IMG/VR virus record: IMGVR_UViG_3300020119_000026
Span: 1-37,495 of that record
Length of the DNA: 37,495 bases
Direction: 5' to 3' (one strand)
Source: a virus
Shown: positions 4,606-36,443 of the stretch, piece after piece
Layout: every line of letters begins with the position of its first letter
Position numbering within the stretch: position 1 is the stretch's first letter
The notes under the pieces: generated by a model
What the model was told of the DNA's origin: nothing
The model's database searches: none
Seen by the model: only the letters and a program-made list of their open reading frames with translations
Made by a program: the position numbers and the translations under genes

Positions 4606-5076
4606 TTACTTGTTCATCATCGTTACATTGACCCAAAAATTCCCGCCACCTTGCGGGATGTAGTTGTACACATCGGCGGGGTTGATCTTCTGGCCGTTGG
4701 CGAACACCTGAATCACGGTGCTATTCACACCCAGCGCAGCGAAGCCTTGAATCTTCACATTGAAATCGTCGTCGCTGGTGATCTGCACCGTGCCGGCGTG
4801 CGGGTACGTTTTGGTGAAAAACACGCGCAGGTATTCGGCTGTCTGTTCGATCTTTAGGTCGCAGCCATACGGCGAATGGTCAACGTCGTTTTGCACGTAC
4901 CACTGGCCCGCCGAGTTTGGCCGGATGATGCAGTGAAGGTGATCGATTTCGGGGATGGCTGGTGCTGCTGCAGTGATCGGCGCAGCGGACGGCGTGGCCG
5001 TAGCAGGCGAAGTCCCGCCGCCACCGCATGCAGCGATAACGATACAGGCCGTGGTGGTTGCCAAGAATTTGTACAT
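4606..5076 (-). CDS. Phage-encoded lipoprotein, 156 aa
   Basis: Start at ATG 5074-5076 follows a strong AAAGGAG site. The longer upstream frame is rejected because the signal peptide begins here. Residues 1-16 are a short lipoprotein signal (MYK then a hydrophobic run) ending in the lipobox IAAC with Cys17, followed by Gly residues. An Ala/Pro/Thr linker follows, then a ~110-residue domain with two Cys that looks beta-rich. Gly at position 18 predicts outer-membrane sorting. It is the first gene of the leftward early operon. Early lipoproteins of phages often block superinfection at the envelope, which is a possible role here (inference). Confidence 0.8.
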   Translation of the reverse strand: MYKFLATTTACIVIAACGGGGTSPATATPSAAPITAAAPAIPEIDHLHCIIRPNSAGQWYVQNDVDHSPYGCDLKIEQTAEYLRVFFTKTYPHAGTVQITSDDDFNVKIQGFAALGVNSTVIQVFANGQKINPADVYNYIPQGGGNFWVNVTMMNK

Positions 5077-5117
5077 GGTGCTTCTCCTTTGTGGTTGTTT
5101 GTTATCCGATGTGAAGA

Positions 5118-5146
5118 AGTGTCGCACACAGAAATTTAAATTGCAA
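5118..5146 (-). promoter_or_regulatory. Leftward early promoter
   Basis: On the minus strand TTGCAA (5146-5141) is 17 bp from GACACT (5123-5118). The latter is weak as a -10 but is preceded by TG one base upstream, the extended -10 arrangement. It lies about 40 bp above the lipoprotein start and would drive the lipoprotein-to-exonuclease operon. Confidence 0.5.
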
Positions 5147-5185
5147 GTAAATCTTTTGCACCAGTAAATTTTCTTGCGCAGTAAA
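5141..5185. promoter_or_regulatory. Three-copy operator, AGTAAA repeats at 17-bp spacing
   Basis: AGTAAA occurs at 5146-5151, 5163-5168 and 5180-5185, exactly 17 bp apart. Each is preceded by TTGC at 5-7 bp. The set lies between, and overlaps, the two divergent promoters, like the operator cluster between the early promoters of lambdoid phages. The adjacent 77-aa XRE protein is the obvious candidate ligand (inference). Confidence 0.6.
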
Positions 5186-5202
5186 GAAAAGTGCTGCATA
5201 AT
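5174..5202 (+). promoter_or_regulatory. Rightward early promoter
   Basis: TTGCGC (5174-5179), 17-bp spacer, CATAAT (5197-5202): a good sigma70 match, 33 bp above the XRE regulator gene and within the AGTAAA repeat cluster. Confidence 0.72.
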
Positions 5203-5234: not shown

Positions 5235-5468
5235 ATGAGGAAGCAACAAGGCCCGGATATGTCGGGCAAGCTGTTCGATGTGATCATGAAGAAGCAGAAG
5301 ATCACGAAGGAAAAAGATTTGGCCGAATACCTGGGCGAGCATCAGACAGCCATCAGCCAGGTACGCAACGGGCACCGTGAAATCAGCGCCGAAATGCTGA
5401 TGCGCATTCTTGATAAAACCGGCATGACGTACAAGGCAGCGAAGGCACACATTCAGGAGCGCGGATAA
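5235..5468 (+). CDS. XRE/Cro-type transcriptional regulator, 77 aa
   Basis: First gene of the rightward early operon, with GGAGGA 5 bp before the ATG. KDLAEYLGEHQTAISQVRNGHR (split around residues 28-49) is a classic XRE helix-turn-helix: DLAEYLG, turn, QTAISQVRNG as recognition helix. Its size is that of Cro proteins, and it probably lacks the separate dimerisation domain of CI. It likely binds the repeats just upstream and balances the two divergent operons (inference). It ends in a one-base TAATG overlap with ninB. Confidence 0.85.
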   Translation: MRKQQGPDMSGKLFDVIMKKQKITKEKDLAEYLGEHQTAISQVRNGHREISAEMLMRILDKTGMTYKAAKAHIQERG

Positions 5469-6372: not shown

Positions 6373-7121
6373 ATGAGTTGGCTCTTTTCGCAGGCGCTGG
6401 TGGAGGAATACTCGGTGGGCACCTCCTTGGATGGCGCACCGTGTGCGCAGTTGAACGTGATGCCTACGCCGCACAAGTTCTGGCGCAACGACAAAATGAT
6501 GGAATTCTCAGACCTTTCCCAATTTGGTCTGACGTTACAACTTTTGACGGACGACCATGGCGCGGAATTGTTGACGTTTTATCGGCAGGGTTTCCTTGCC
6601 AAGACATCAGCAGCGCAGGACGTGGGGCAGGAATTGACGGAGCCAAAAGCGGACTTTGGGTGGAAGTGGGCCGGATCATTGGCGAAGTTCGACCACGACG
6701 CGTATGGCTGGAAAACTCGGCAAGGCTCACTTCTAGGGGACTCGGACGAGTTCTTGGAGACCTGGCCAAACTGGGGTTTGATGCTCGATGGGGAATTATT
6801 GGAGCAGATGACTGCGGGCTTTCCCATGACAGAAAACGAATATGGATCTTGGCCTACTCCAAAAGCTCGGGACTGGCGCAGCGGTGGCACAGATCCGTTG
6901 AAAGTGCAGGCACGAATAGAGCGCCGCAAGAATCAGGGGGTTATAGATTTACCGGATGCAGCCGTCCATCGGTTTTGGAAGCAGGGGTTCAGTGGTCATC
7001 TGAAACCGTCCTTCTCCGAAAGTCTCATGGATTGGCCAATCGGATGGACCGACTTACAGCCATTGGCAATGGCCAAGTTCCGCGAGTGGCAGCAACGGCA
7101 TGGGATATCTTGCATGGCTGA
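6369..7121 (+). CDS. C5-cytosine DNA methyltransferase A
   Basis: 250 aa starting with GTG (6369). The Dcm-type motifs are all present: motif I LFAGAGGGILGG (residues 6-17, SAM binding), motif IV GFPCQDIS with catalytic Cys77, motif VI as ENS (116-118, usually ENV), motif VIII HDRKRIWILAYS, and motif X NGQVPRVAATAW at the end. It is short for the family (M.HhaI is 327 aa), because the target-recognition region is reduced. It likely methylates phage DNA to evade host restriction; no partner endonuclease is encoded nearby. Base composition looks lower in GC than its neighbours. The GTG lies only ~3 nt after the GGAGGT site, whereas the ATG of the overlapping frame is spaced better. Confidence 0.88.
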   Translation: MNELALFAGAGGGILGGHLLGWRTVCAVERDAYAAQVLAQRQNDGILRPFPIWSDVTTFDGRPWRGIVDVLSAGFPCQDISSAGRGAGIDGAKSGLWVEVGRIIGEVRPRRVWLENSARLTSRGLGRVLGDLAKLGFDARWGIIGADDCGLSHDRKRIWILAYSKSSGLAQRWHRSVESAGTNRAPQESGGYRFTGCSRPSVLEAGVQWSSETVLLRKSHGLANRMDRLTAIGNGQVPRVAATAWDILHG

Positions 7122-7176
7122 TCCACTATCGGACCCGCACGAAGTGCTGACATTTCACGACCTGGTGCAGCCATGA
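6373..7176 (+). CDS. ORF overprinting methyltransferase A (+1 frame), 267 aa
   Basis: Open frame in the +1 phase covering the whole methyltransferase gene. ATG at 6373 is directly after the stop of the upstream gene and 7 nt from GGAGGT, a better ribosome spacing than the methyltransferase GTG has. It ends at 7176 in an ATGA overlap with the DUF1364 gene, the coupling style of this operon. Motifs AKTS, WKTRQ, TWPNWG, SWPTPKARDW and LMDWPIGWTD recall, from memory, strings in phage hypothetical proteins. Many coincide with shifted methyltransferase motifs (AKTS is the shift of PCQDIS). Against it: near the N-terminus it diverges from its counterpart at silent methyltransferase positions. Coding status is unresolved. 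Confidence 0.45.
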   Translation: MSWLFSQALVEEYSVGTSLDGAPCAQLNVMPTPHKFWRNDKMMEFSDLSQFGLTLQLLTDDHGAELLTFYRQGFLAKTSAAQDVGQELTEPKADFGWKWAGSLAKFDHDAYGWKTRQGSLLGDSDEFLETWPNWGLMLDGELLEQMTAGFPMTENEYGSWPTPKARDWRSGGTDPLKVQARIERRKNQGVIDLPDAAVHRFWKQGFSGHLKPSFSESLMDWPIGWTDLQPLAMAKFREWQQRHGISCMADPLSDPHEVLTFHDLVQP

Positions 7177-8520: not shown

Positions 8521-8547
8521 CGGCGCTCAATTTATCGATTGACGCCG
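8521..8547 (+). other. Strong hairpin in the replication leader
   Basis: CGGCG-c-TCAAT, loop TTATCG, ATTGA-CGCCG: ten base pairs with one bulged C. It is not followed by a U run, so it is not a typical terminator. It lies 54 bp before the C4-like RNA, in the same untranslated leader, and could mark a processing site or the operon end. Confidence 0.5.
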
Positions 8548-8579
8548 CACAAGATTTCCGGGAAGATTCTTCACATGCC

Positions 8580-8599
8580 TTGGCGGGCGACAATTCAGG
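8580..8599 (+). promoter_or_regulatory. Predicted target of the C4-like RNA
   Basis: TTGGCGGGC (8580-8588) can pair with GTCCGCCAA of the RNA (8637-8645; nine pairs, one G-U). TCAGG (8595-8599) can pair with CCTGA in the RNA's first loop (8627-8631). The two pairings are in antiparallel order with gaps of 6 and 5 nt, the bipartite a/b arrangement of C4-type regulation. Confidence 0.5.
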
Positions 8600-8600
8600 C

Positions 8601-8680
8601 GGGCTTCAAATGCATCGTGCCGGGTTCCTGATCCCGGTCCGCCAACACCGAAAGGTGACGGTGCATTTGAGGCCCTTTTT
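8601..8680 (+). ncRNA. Structured RNA resembling C4/CI antisense RNA
   Basis: About 80 nt folding as a compact three-way junction. P1: 8601-8614 pairs with 8662-8675 (14 bp, one G-U). P2: CCGGG 8620-8624 with CCCGG 8633-8637, loop TTCCTGAT. P3: CCG 8639-8641 with CGG 8659-8661, then CACC/GGTG closing a GAAA tetraloop (8650-8653). Five T follow (8676-8680). The size (C4 is ~77 nt), the fold, and the loop and internal-loop complementarity to upstream sequence match the C4 antisense RNAs of P1/P7 and the CI RNA of P4. Those control an antirepressor or replication operon by pairing. The ribosome site of the next gene (GGCGG, 8686-8690) can pair with the same CCGCC. Family assignment is from memory. 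Confidence 0.62.
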
Positions 8681-8696
8681 ATTTGGGCGGTACGAA

Positions 8697-9638
8697 ATGT
8701 ATTACTACCAACACAACATAGGCGACTTCGACAAGAAGACTCGTCACCTTACCAGGGTAGAGCGCAGCATCTACCTGGACATGATCCACCTCTACTACAC
8801 GACCGAGCAGCAGCTCACGCTTGACGTTGCGATGATCTGTCGCAAGGTACTGGCTCGCACCGAGGAAGAAAAGGCAGCTGTCCTGGCCATCCTTGACGAG
8901 TTCTTCGAGGAAACACCGAGCGGCTGGTTCCATGATCGGTGCGAAGAGGAGCTGGCCGCTTACCGCAAAACCAAGTCGCAGGCATCCGCTGCCGGCCGTG
9001 CTTCTGCCGCCGCGAAAGAGGAACGCAGGCAACAGGCAATCAACGGCGGTTCAACGGACGTTGTAACGCCTGTTGAACGTCGGTTGAACGACCGTGCAAC
9101 GGCAAGTCAACGGCTCGTCAACCAACCAATAACCAATAACCAAGAACCAGTAAACATGAACCAGGACCCAATAACCGGGAACCAGGTTCAAGAACAACCC
9201 CAACAGCAACCCCTTCCCGAAGCGGTTCCCGCCTCGGCCCCGGCCAAAGCGCCTCGCAAGTCCAAGCCTGCAGAACCTGGAACCGGCAAGGTGTGGGCAG
9301 CTTATGCCACTGCCTACTGGAATCGCTACGGTGTTGAGCCTGTCCGCAATGCGATGGTCAACGCTCAGCTGTCGAACCTTGTTCGCCGCATTGGTCTTGC
9401 AGATGCCGAACAGGTTGCGGGCTTTTTCCTCGGGCACCAGCACCGCTTCTACGTCGAGAAAATGCACGCTGTTGGCCTGCTGCTGGCCGATTGCGAGAAG
9501 CTGCGCACCGAATGGGCGACCAGCTCGCAAATGACCGCCGCCAAGGCCGTGCAGCAGGACCGCACGCAGACAAATTTCGATGCGTTCGCCCCGCTGCTGG
9601 CGGAAGCGCGTGCGATGGAGGCGGCAAATGGCAAGTGA
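8697..9638 (+). CDS. DUF1376-type replication protein, 313 aa
   Basis: Start at ATG 8697 (MYYYQHNIGDFDKKTRHLT): this opening is the DUF1376 hallmark, and the in-frame extension upstream lies in the structured leader. Residues 1-90 are the DUF1376 domain, often found at the front of phage replication initiators. Residues ~105-190 are a low-complexity Gln/Asn/Pro linker encoded by the repeat region. The C-terminal ~120 residues are a helical domain. It probably recognises the origin and recruits host replication enzymes, since the genome has no polymerase or helicase of its own. The ribosome site is weak (GGGCGG) and may be occluded by the antisense RNA. Confidence 0.78.
   Translation: MYYYQHNIGDFDKKTRHLTRVERSIYLDMIHLYYTTEQQLTLDVAMICRKVLARTEEEKAAVLAILDEFFEETPSGWFHDRCEEELAAYRKTKSQASAAGRASAAAKEERRQQAINGGSTDVVTPVERRLNDRATASQRLVNQPITNNQEPVNMNQDPITGNQVQEQPQQQPLPEAVPASAPAKAPRKSKPAEPGTGKVWAAYATAYWNRYGVEPVRNAMVNAQLSNLVRRIGLADAEQVAGFFLGHQHRFYVEKMHAVGLLLADCEKLRTEWATSSQMTAAKAVQQDRTQTNFDAFAPLLAEARAMEAANGK
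9041..9113. other. Iteron-like repeats, candidate replication origin
   Basis: CAACGG occurs at 9041, 9052, 9097 and 9108, and its near-inverse TTGAACG at 9073 and 9084. Within each pair the spacing is exactly 11 bp, so sites lie on one face of the helix. The cluster is inside the replication gene, as lambda's iterons lie inside gene O, and is followed at 9119-9190 by a strand-biased A/C-rich stretch built of AACCA-like units that would melt easily. Confidence 0.5.
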
Positions 9639-35760: not shown

Positions 35761-36443
35761 GCTGGCTCCATTTCTGTTAAAAGTTTCCATGCTTCTGCAA
35801 CCACTGCTGGAATTTGCCCGTTTCCAGTGGCTTTGAGTCGGTCCATCCGATGGGCCAATCCATCAGCCATTCGTGATTCGTCGGGGTAGGTCGCCCAAAC
35901 ACTCGGACAAATTCTTGAGCGCATTTCCATTTCTGCATTGACTTGGCCGCATAGTTTGCTGTGCAGGTCGGTGTATGCAAGAAGCCAATATCGTTCCCGT
36001 ACATGGTCTGCACCCAGGTCCGACGCGGCCATTTTGACGCAGCGGACGGAATAACCCAGCGCTTCAAGGTCGTCTGCTGCCCAATCAATCGCTTGCTTAC
36101 TGACGTTCTCAGCCCATACGTACCTGGGAGCGACATCTGCCACGATCCGCAGCTTTTCCGGCCAGAGATCGTCTGCATTATTTTTCCCCGCAGCTGCTGT
36201 GGAATATCTTTGGCAGGGAAAGCCGCCAGAAACCACGTCAATAATTCCTCGGAACGGGCGTCCGTCAAAAGTACGTACATCGTCCCAAATGGGGAACGGT
36301 GGCAAGTGCCCCTCATTTTGTCGCTGCATGAGTCGTCTTGCGCAAAAGGCATTGAACTCCACAGCGCAGACTGTTTTCCATCCAAGGAGTTTGCCGCCAA
36401 GAATGCCGCCTCCAGCGCCTGCGAAAAGTGCCAGCTCATTCAC
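35757..36443 (-). CDS. C5-cytosine DNA methyltransferase B
   Basis: 228 aa from GTG 36443. Motif I LFAGAGGGILGG, motif IV GFPCQRYS with Cys77, motif VI ENV (112-114), motif VIII RERYWLLAY, motif X NGQIPAVVAEAW. The first 29 residues match methyltransferase A at 27 positions; the middle is diverged, so the two probably differ in target sequence. GTG overlaps the upstream stop as GTGA, the same arrangement as copy A. A second frame overlaps it (35777-36439). Likely anti-restriction DNA modification. Confidence 0.87.
   Translation of the reverse strand: MNELALFAGAGGGILGGKLLGWKTVCAVEFNAFCARRLMQRQNEGHLPPFPIWDDVRTFDGRPFRGIIDVVSGGFPCQRYSTAAAGKNNADDLWPEKLRIVADVAPRYVWAENVSKQAIDWAADDLEALGYSVRCVKMAASDLGADHVRERYWLLAYTDLHSKLCGQVNAEMEMRSRICPSVWATYPDESRMADGLAHRMDRLKATGNGQIPAVVAEAWKLLTEMEPA
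35777..36439 (-). CDS. ORF overprinting methyltransferase B (+1 frame), 220 aa
   Basis: ATG directly after the upstream TGA, as in copy A. It shares MSW-FSQAL at the start and a C-terminal LMDWPIGWTD-KPL-KF-W-QKHG pattern with the ORF overlapping methyltransferase A (18 of 27 residues identical there), but differs strongly between. Unlike copy A it ends inside the methyltransferase gene with no coupling to the next gene. It may be a real overprinted protein or a by-product of methyltransferase conservation. Confidence 0.35.
   Translation of the reverse strand: MSWHFSQALEAAFLAANSLDGKQSALWSSMPFAQDDSCSDKMRGTCHRSPFGTMYVLLTDARSEELLTWFLAAFPAKDIPQQLRGKIMQTISGRKSCGSWQMSLPGTYGLRTSVSKRLIGQQTTLKRWVIPSAASKWPRRTWVQTMYGNDIGFLHTPTCTANYAAKSMQKWKCAQEFVRVFGRPTPTNHEWLMDWPIGWTDSKPLETGKFQQWLQKHGNF

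Follow-up and report, generated by a model that had tools for sequence, protein, structure and literature searches.

Only a few temperate phages and satellites are known to use antisense immunity of the C4/CI type. Plasmids such as pT181 and pIP501 limit their replication by an antisense RNA that acts on the rep leader as it is being made and favours formation of an intrinsic terminator. The pT181 attenuator is listed as a type (PMC3753616). The CI RNA of P4 is reported to cause premature transcription termination by pairing both upstream and downstream of cI (PMC4825925, citing Sabbattini 1995 and Briani 2000). According to the annotation of phage P1, a2/b2 are the elements through which C4 RNA covers the ribosome site of icd. 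The Group 1 C4-like sRNAs of Acinetobacter combine a C4-like structure and a variable target loop with high expression and apparent processing (PMC5320573). In Rfam, the C4 RNA has the entry RF01695, accompanied by RF03163 (c4-a1b1) for the target motif.

Here we describe a leader RNA that resembles these systems in its pairing plan and differs from them in the arrangement of its parts. It is encoded in a viral DNA of 37,495 nucleotides (IMG/VR record IMGVR_UViG_3300020119_000026, positions 1-37,495), referred to below as the window.

A structured leader in front of the replication gene

The leader is encoded at window positions 8574-8680 on the plus strand, with its elements in the order P0, b1, P1 5' strand, P2, a', P3, P1 3' strand and U-run. 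The end of the U-run is separated by 16 nt from the ATG (8697) of the replication gene. The features of the locus are as follows.

8540-8574, plus strand: presumed promoter region; transcript start near 8574-8576
8576-8589, plus strand: 5' hairpin P0 (from the sequence), with stem TGC/GCG including one G-U pair; its 8-nt loop CTTGGCGG (8579-8586) presents a1
8580-8586, plus strand: target a1, TTGGCGG, complement of the joining strand a'
8595-8599, plus strand: target b1, TCAGG, complement of the P2 loop; 1 nt 5' of P1
8601-8618, plus strand: 5' strand of stem P1 (from the fold), pairing with 8658-8675
8619-8638, plus strand: hairpin P2 (from the fold), with stem 8619-8624 / 8633-8638 and, as variable specificity loop b', TTCCTGAT (8625-8632)
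8639-8645, plus strand: joining strand a', CCGCCAA (from the sequence)
8646-8657, plus strand: GAAA-capped hairpin P3, CACC-GAAA-GGTG (from the fold)
8658-8680, plus strand: 3' strand of stem P1 (8658-8675) and U-run of five T (8676-8680), presumed intrinsic terminator and RNA 3' end
8697-9638, plus strand: replication gene, encoding a DUF1376 / primosomal, replication-initiation-like protein of 313 aa (Pfam PF07120, E 2.9e-27)

A preliminary description of this DNA had placed a three-way-junction RNA immediately before the replication gene, and both sequence and fold confirm it there. The closing stem, given in that description as 14 bp, proved to be 18 bp long, compared with 19 bp in most relatives, and the hairpin P0 had been overlooked. 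The window RNA folds with a predicted energy of -55.7 kcal/mol (z -2.22). Two short upstream segments had also been claimed to complement the RNA in antiparallel order; they are a1 (a name taken over from phage P1) and b1, which complement the joining strand and the P2 loop, respectively. The combination of a1 and b1 occurs twice in the window (0.10 expected by shuffling), once in the leader itself and once, on the minus strand, in the RNA; the same search revealed no second a1...b1 target downstream of the RNA within the window.

The window's own -10 hexamer (AAGATT) is weak, and a strict scan detected none. Among relatives of the RNA, however, a -10-like hexamer ends 9-12 nt 5' of a1 in 79 of 101 cases, where about 2.8 would be expected per offset, and this position places the transcript start at P0. 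The replication gene itself matches PHROG 4118 (primosomal protein) and PHROG 391 (replication initiation, O-like).

A family of leaders with a variable pairing code

Relatives were collected with a two-part DNA pattern (a1 ... a'), which gave 21 viral contigs, 19 of them true members, and with a relaxed pattern, which gave at least 120 matches; a filter for a long P1 stem and a T-run, applied to all loci collected, left at least 119 relatives in phage contigs. Members were therefore selected on a1, a' and the stem/T-run filter, while P0, P2, P3 and b1:b' were left unforced by the search; in the first family (a1/a' TTGGCGG/CCGCCAA) the a' sequence is invariant by design. An exact-sequence search of viral contigs with the P2/joining region of the window found nothing. 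BLAST of the window member against phages identified a true member in MW202462, a circular myovirus genome from Manatee Spring that carries one copy, and BLAST of two other members against phages gave no matches. In two contigs encoding relatives of the replication gene (L001 and L002) the structure is kept despite changed sequences, and a U-run of 4-9 T directly follows P1 in all 101 parsed relatives. The family model, R1, gave a moderate match in Saprospira (33.6 bits); another match to it, at locus L107 (24.4 bits), turned out to be a plain long inverted repeat.

Covariation in related phages had been named beforehand as a supporting sign, and it is extensive. Among 51 aligned sequences, each with a loop of its own, changes on both sides are seen in 34 of 35 pairs and 93% of cells pair; the covariation score is 0.814 against 0.202 for shuffled and no more than 0.15 for slid controls. 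The support spans five helices, P2 being joined by P0 (4/4 pairs changed on both sides, 91% paired), P1 (17/18 pairs), P3 (4/4 pairs, 100% paired) and the helix between b1 and the loop (4/4 pairs). The upstream complementarity, whose loss in relatives would have spoken against the original proposal, is retained: b1 matches the loop of its own RNA over a mean of 4.65 nt, and over 2.70 nt when loops are permuted among the 51 sequences, a value as high being reached in none of 10,000 trials. The b1:b' helix is nevertheless only 4-7 nt long in many members, and 4 nt in phage BcepIL02.

Since a1 and a' were fixed by the first searches, their pairing was assessed by a database comparison of double mutants. 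The original pair TTGGCGG/CCGCCAA accounts for at least about 119 members. The compensated pair TTGGCAG/CTGCCAA gave 41 matches, of which 36 pass the stem and U-run test, whereas the mismatched pair TTGGCAG/CCGCCAA gave a single match that lacks the structure, and thus no members. A third pair, TTGGCTG/CAGCCAA, produced one match, by chance. Together with the covariation, the compensatory a1/a' variants strongly support the suggestion that the RNA follows a C4/CI-like design with its target upstream.

Comparison with C4 and CI RNAs

The expectation that the RNA would be recognised by the Rfam C4 model was not borne out. RF01695 gives no match in the window, whether the cut-off is its gathering score or E<=10, and none in 17 related loci or in the named phages that carry the RNA. 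Phage P1 (68.8 bits), N15 (78.8 bits) and P4 (74.9 bits) are all matched by the same search, so the absence of a C4 match in the window is real. Reciprocally, R1 does not find the C4 RNAs of phage P1, N15 and P4. The window family is thus not a member of RF01695. That it is a canonical C4 RNA which has merely drifted would account for the common pairing plan and for the a' core YGCCAA, which resembles the C4 consensus UgCcAA; given the two negative searches and an exchanged hairpin order, we consider this highly improbable.

The likeness is nonetheless close. The C4 RNA of P1/P7 and the window RNA are both three-way junctions closed by a P1 stem, in both the loop and the joining strand are complementary, in antiparallel order, to a1...b1 upstream in the same transcript, and in both a variable loop confers specificity. 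In the alignment of phage P1, C4 reads P1 5' strand, UUCG-capped hairpin, specificity hairpin, joining strand, P1 3' strand, whereas the window RNA reads P1 5' strand, specificity hairpin, joining strand, GAAA-capped hairpin, P1 3' strand. The unit of specificity hairpin and joining strand is therefore common to both, and the capped hairpin lies on its opposite side. The targets annotated in phage P1, a1 (TTGACAG) and b1 (GTTAGTGC), are ordered as in the window, but b1 lies 66 nt from the stem in phage P1 and 1 nt from it in the window. Unlike C4, the window family displays a1 in the loop of a 5' hairpin, ends in a U-run, and has no a2/b2 at the ribosome site.

The CI RNA of P4, itself matched by RF01695, likewise governs a replication operon and pairs with an upstream leader sequence, but in P4 the targets (seqA/seqC) flank cI, and the window has a single upstream one; the arm order also differs, and in the window the presumed terminator forms part of the antisense RNA. 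From pT181 and pIP501 the window differs in that their antisense RNA comes from the opposite strand, and that of the window belongs to the sense leader itself. The Acinetobacter Group 1 sRNAs, finally, match Rfam C4 and reside in bacterial genomes, in those sampled of which the window family was not seen.

The target lies in the leader of the same operon and pairs with loop and joining strand in a compensatory manner, and a C4/CI-type mode of working is likely. The window RNA is best classed as a permuted C4/CI variant with its own target display and terminator. We did not find this arrangement in the literature on C4, CI and IsrK RNAs outside subscription journals. A functional tie to C4 is provided by one member (locus L171, 6736-6838), which directly precedes an AntA/AntB antirepressor gene (PF08346), since the C4 RNA of phage P1 controls an antirepressor.

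The downstream genes of the family are otherwise diverse. In a clustering by similarity linkage the largest group accounts for 48 of 117 and includes the DUF1376 replication genes; others encode RecT or NUMOD4/HNH endonucleases, and in the Burkholderia phages a winged-helix protein heads the replication operon. In cultured Bordetella, Acinetobacter, Vibrio, Thalassomonas and Moraxella phages the DUF1376 relative is packed into its operon with little or no space for a leader, and R1 found no match in the three of them searched (L247, L250 and L252). RNA and DUF1376 are thus not tied to each other.

A further RNA was seen upstream of a DUF1376 relative at another locus (L004, 4700-4815). It has the canonical C4 order, with the capped hairpin first, and its loop CGTTAG pairs with upstream CTAACG and its joining strand TCTGCCAA with TTGGCAGA. 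The Rfam C4 model does not detect it, which indicates that this model misses some C4-like RNAs.

Nascent-strand folding and proposed mode of action

Transcripts of 101 relatives were folded at increasing lengths. In the nascent RNA, a cis helix between a1 and a' belongs to the minimum free energy structure in 99 of 101, with b1:b' nested inside it in most. This helix holds until the transcript is, in the median, 11 nt short of the U-run (7 nt in the window), at which point P1 prevails, and in the complete RNA its pairing probability is 0. The cis a1b1:a'b' state and the P1 state are mutually exclusive by folding. By prediction, stem P1 greatly exceeds the cis structure in stability, and any readthrough would therefore depend on co-transcriptional kinetics.

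From this exclusion it is proposed that cis pairing delays the terminator and that free RNA removes the delay. Transcription from the promoter would produce a leader with its own target at the front (a1 in P0, then b1) and, behind it, the C4-like antisense domain, the U-run and the replication operon. When free antisense RNA is lacking, nascent a1b1 would pair in cis with a'b' and withhold the 5' strand of P1 until the polymerase nears the U-run, so that some polymerases would continue into the replication gene. The transcripts that terminate, which may also be trimmed at P1, would build up to form an antisense RNA about 80-105 nt long. In newly started leaders, whether the phage's own or those of a homologous phage, this RNA could bind a1b1. 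With a1b1 occupied, the cis antiterminator would be blocked, P1 and the U-run would form, and the operon would be turned off. The outcome would be a self-limiting replication switch coupled to sequence-coded self-immunity, by a logic equivalent to that of P4 CI and of plasmid rep attenuation.

We regard it as reasonably probable that an antisense-controlled terminator of this kind sets early-operon expression and self-immunity, with termination, action in trans and immunity as its conjectural parts. It is supported by the structure with its covariation, the single copy per genome, the single target in the window, the promoter position, the U-run and the cis folding, and also by the differing b1/b' pairs of Burkholderia phages, the unrelated code of phage JC1, the downstream genes with the antirepressor gene at L171 among them, and the 36 compensated against no mismatched a1/a' pairs. 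The weak promoter of the window, the great stability of P1, the short b1:b' helix of many members and the possible incompleteness of most contigs weaken it. It is also weakened by the fact that an attenuator working only in cis, in which a1b1/a'b' and P1 compete within one transcript and transcription speed, a protein or a ribosome is sensed, would show the same base pairing. Such a device, with no trans-acting RNA, would fit the one copy per genome, the single target lying in cis in the window and the two exclusive structures; but a cis switch has no need of a loop and target that co-vary so widely across phages (51 distinct loops), and the display of a' and b' in a joining strand and a loop is that of the trans-acting C4/CI RNAs. 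We think it rather unlikely.

It had also been suggested that CCGCC might pair with GGCGG in the ribosome-site region of the replication gene. The window does contain GGCGG at 8686-8690, able to pair with CCGCC, and regulation of translation through the ribosome-binding region, in trans or in cis, would have a precedent in the covering of the icd site by C4. This sequence follows the U-run, however, in just 5 of 101 relatives, no b2 counterpart lies close to the ribosome site, and the U-run terminator precedes that site, all of which makes a C4-style translational repressor very unlikely.

Distribution and exchange among phages

One copy per genome was found in all 20 records checked. Cultured carriers are the Burkholderia phages BcepMigl, BcepIL02, DC1 and CSP3 (R1 82-96 bits), in which the RNA lies in a stretch of about 210 nt that carries no annotation and precedes the replication operon; even closely related Burkholderia phages differ in their b1/b' pairs. 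No member was found in Limnohabitans phage DC33 or phage zth2-2. Burkholderia phage JC1 (L245, 600-700) has, in the same position, an RNA with the same pairing plan and an unrelated a1/a' code: an 18-bp P1, a1/a' GCCAAACC/GGTTTGGC, b1/b' CCAGCA/TGCTGG and no clear P3. This case suggests that many more members with other codes exist.

In five contigs (L007, L010, L011, L013 and L018) the promoter-RNA cassette is identical and the flanks differ, as do the downstream genes where readable, from which it follows that the cassette moves as a unit. Such exchange would suit an RNA whose main role is against other phages or host mRNAs, as in co-infection exclusion, with a1b1 serving for autoregulation only. 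Against this, the operon starts at a near-fixed distance from the RNA, the first start codon lying mostly 16-21 nt after the T-run begins, and the own leader is the sole good target in the window; a main role of this kind is accordingly unlikely. Returning to the antisense-controlled terminator, the RNA probably lets each phage recognise its own kind and switch off its early genes.

That no integrase is visible holds for the window, but not for all its cultured relatives: BcepMigl and CSP3 (PMC10269572) have integrases. A tyrosine integrase (PF00589) was detected in 0 of 16 and 3 of 25 records, and a serine recombinase (PF07508) in none of 26. Most members are metagenomic contigs, possibly incomplete, and a strictly lytic lifestyle is not claimed for these phages. 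The first pattern gave 92 matches in 84,980 bacterial genomes, and among those examined as loci none has a P1 stem with a U-run; the relaxed pattern gave 5 matches in 770 further genomes, fewer than its reversed-pattern controls and without stems. These scans, which see one a1/a' code only, thus found no member in an integrated prophage.

CSP3 has lysogeny genes, but no lysogens were seen; the lysogens of its relatives are unstable, and those of JC1 are stable (PMC10269572, PMC9144972). The RNA is relevant to the question of why lysogeny genes are present in Bcep22-like phages and why the behaviour of these phages is ambiguous (PMC9144972, PMC10269572). The family is large, absent from Rfam 15, unannotated even in cultured phages and apparently undescribed, and it presents the C4/CI logic in rearranged form, with target and terminator contained in the molecule itself. 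Its a/b code would be a simple predictor, readable from sequence, of which phages should interfere. More speculatively, such attenuators may be a distinct and widespread class of 'self-barcodes', with one exchangeable cassette of promoter, target, antisense RNA and terminator per phage and an a/b code by which co-infecting phages silence the early operons of kin and spare those of strangers, mostly in phages without a detected integrase; we put this forward only as a tentative idea.

Neighbouring genes

A lambdoid early region adjoins T7-like virion genes in the window. Between a YqaJ/RecT block and NinB/YbcO/RusA genes lies a divergent pair, placed like a cI/cro switch, that encodes a 197-aa protein without a family match (4606-5199, minus strand) and a 77-aa HTH regulator (5235-5468, plus strand). 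Two otherwise different proteins, encoded at 6373-7176 (plus strand) and 35777-36439 (minus strand), have a short C-terminal domain in common (PHROG 26627/35493). Limnohabitans phage DC33 (L261, PQ492659) is classed in the Inoviridae, yet this assignment looks wrong, since its genome of 39 kb contains a 9.4-kb gene; its DNA is similar to recombination genes of Burkholderia podoviruses.
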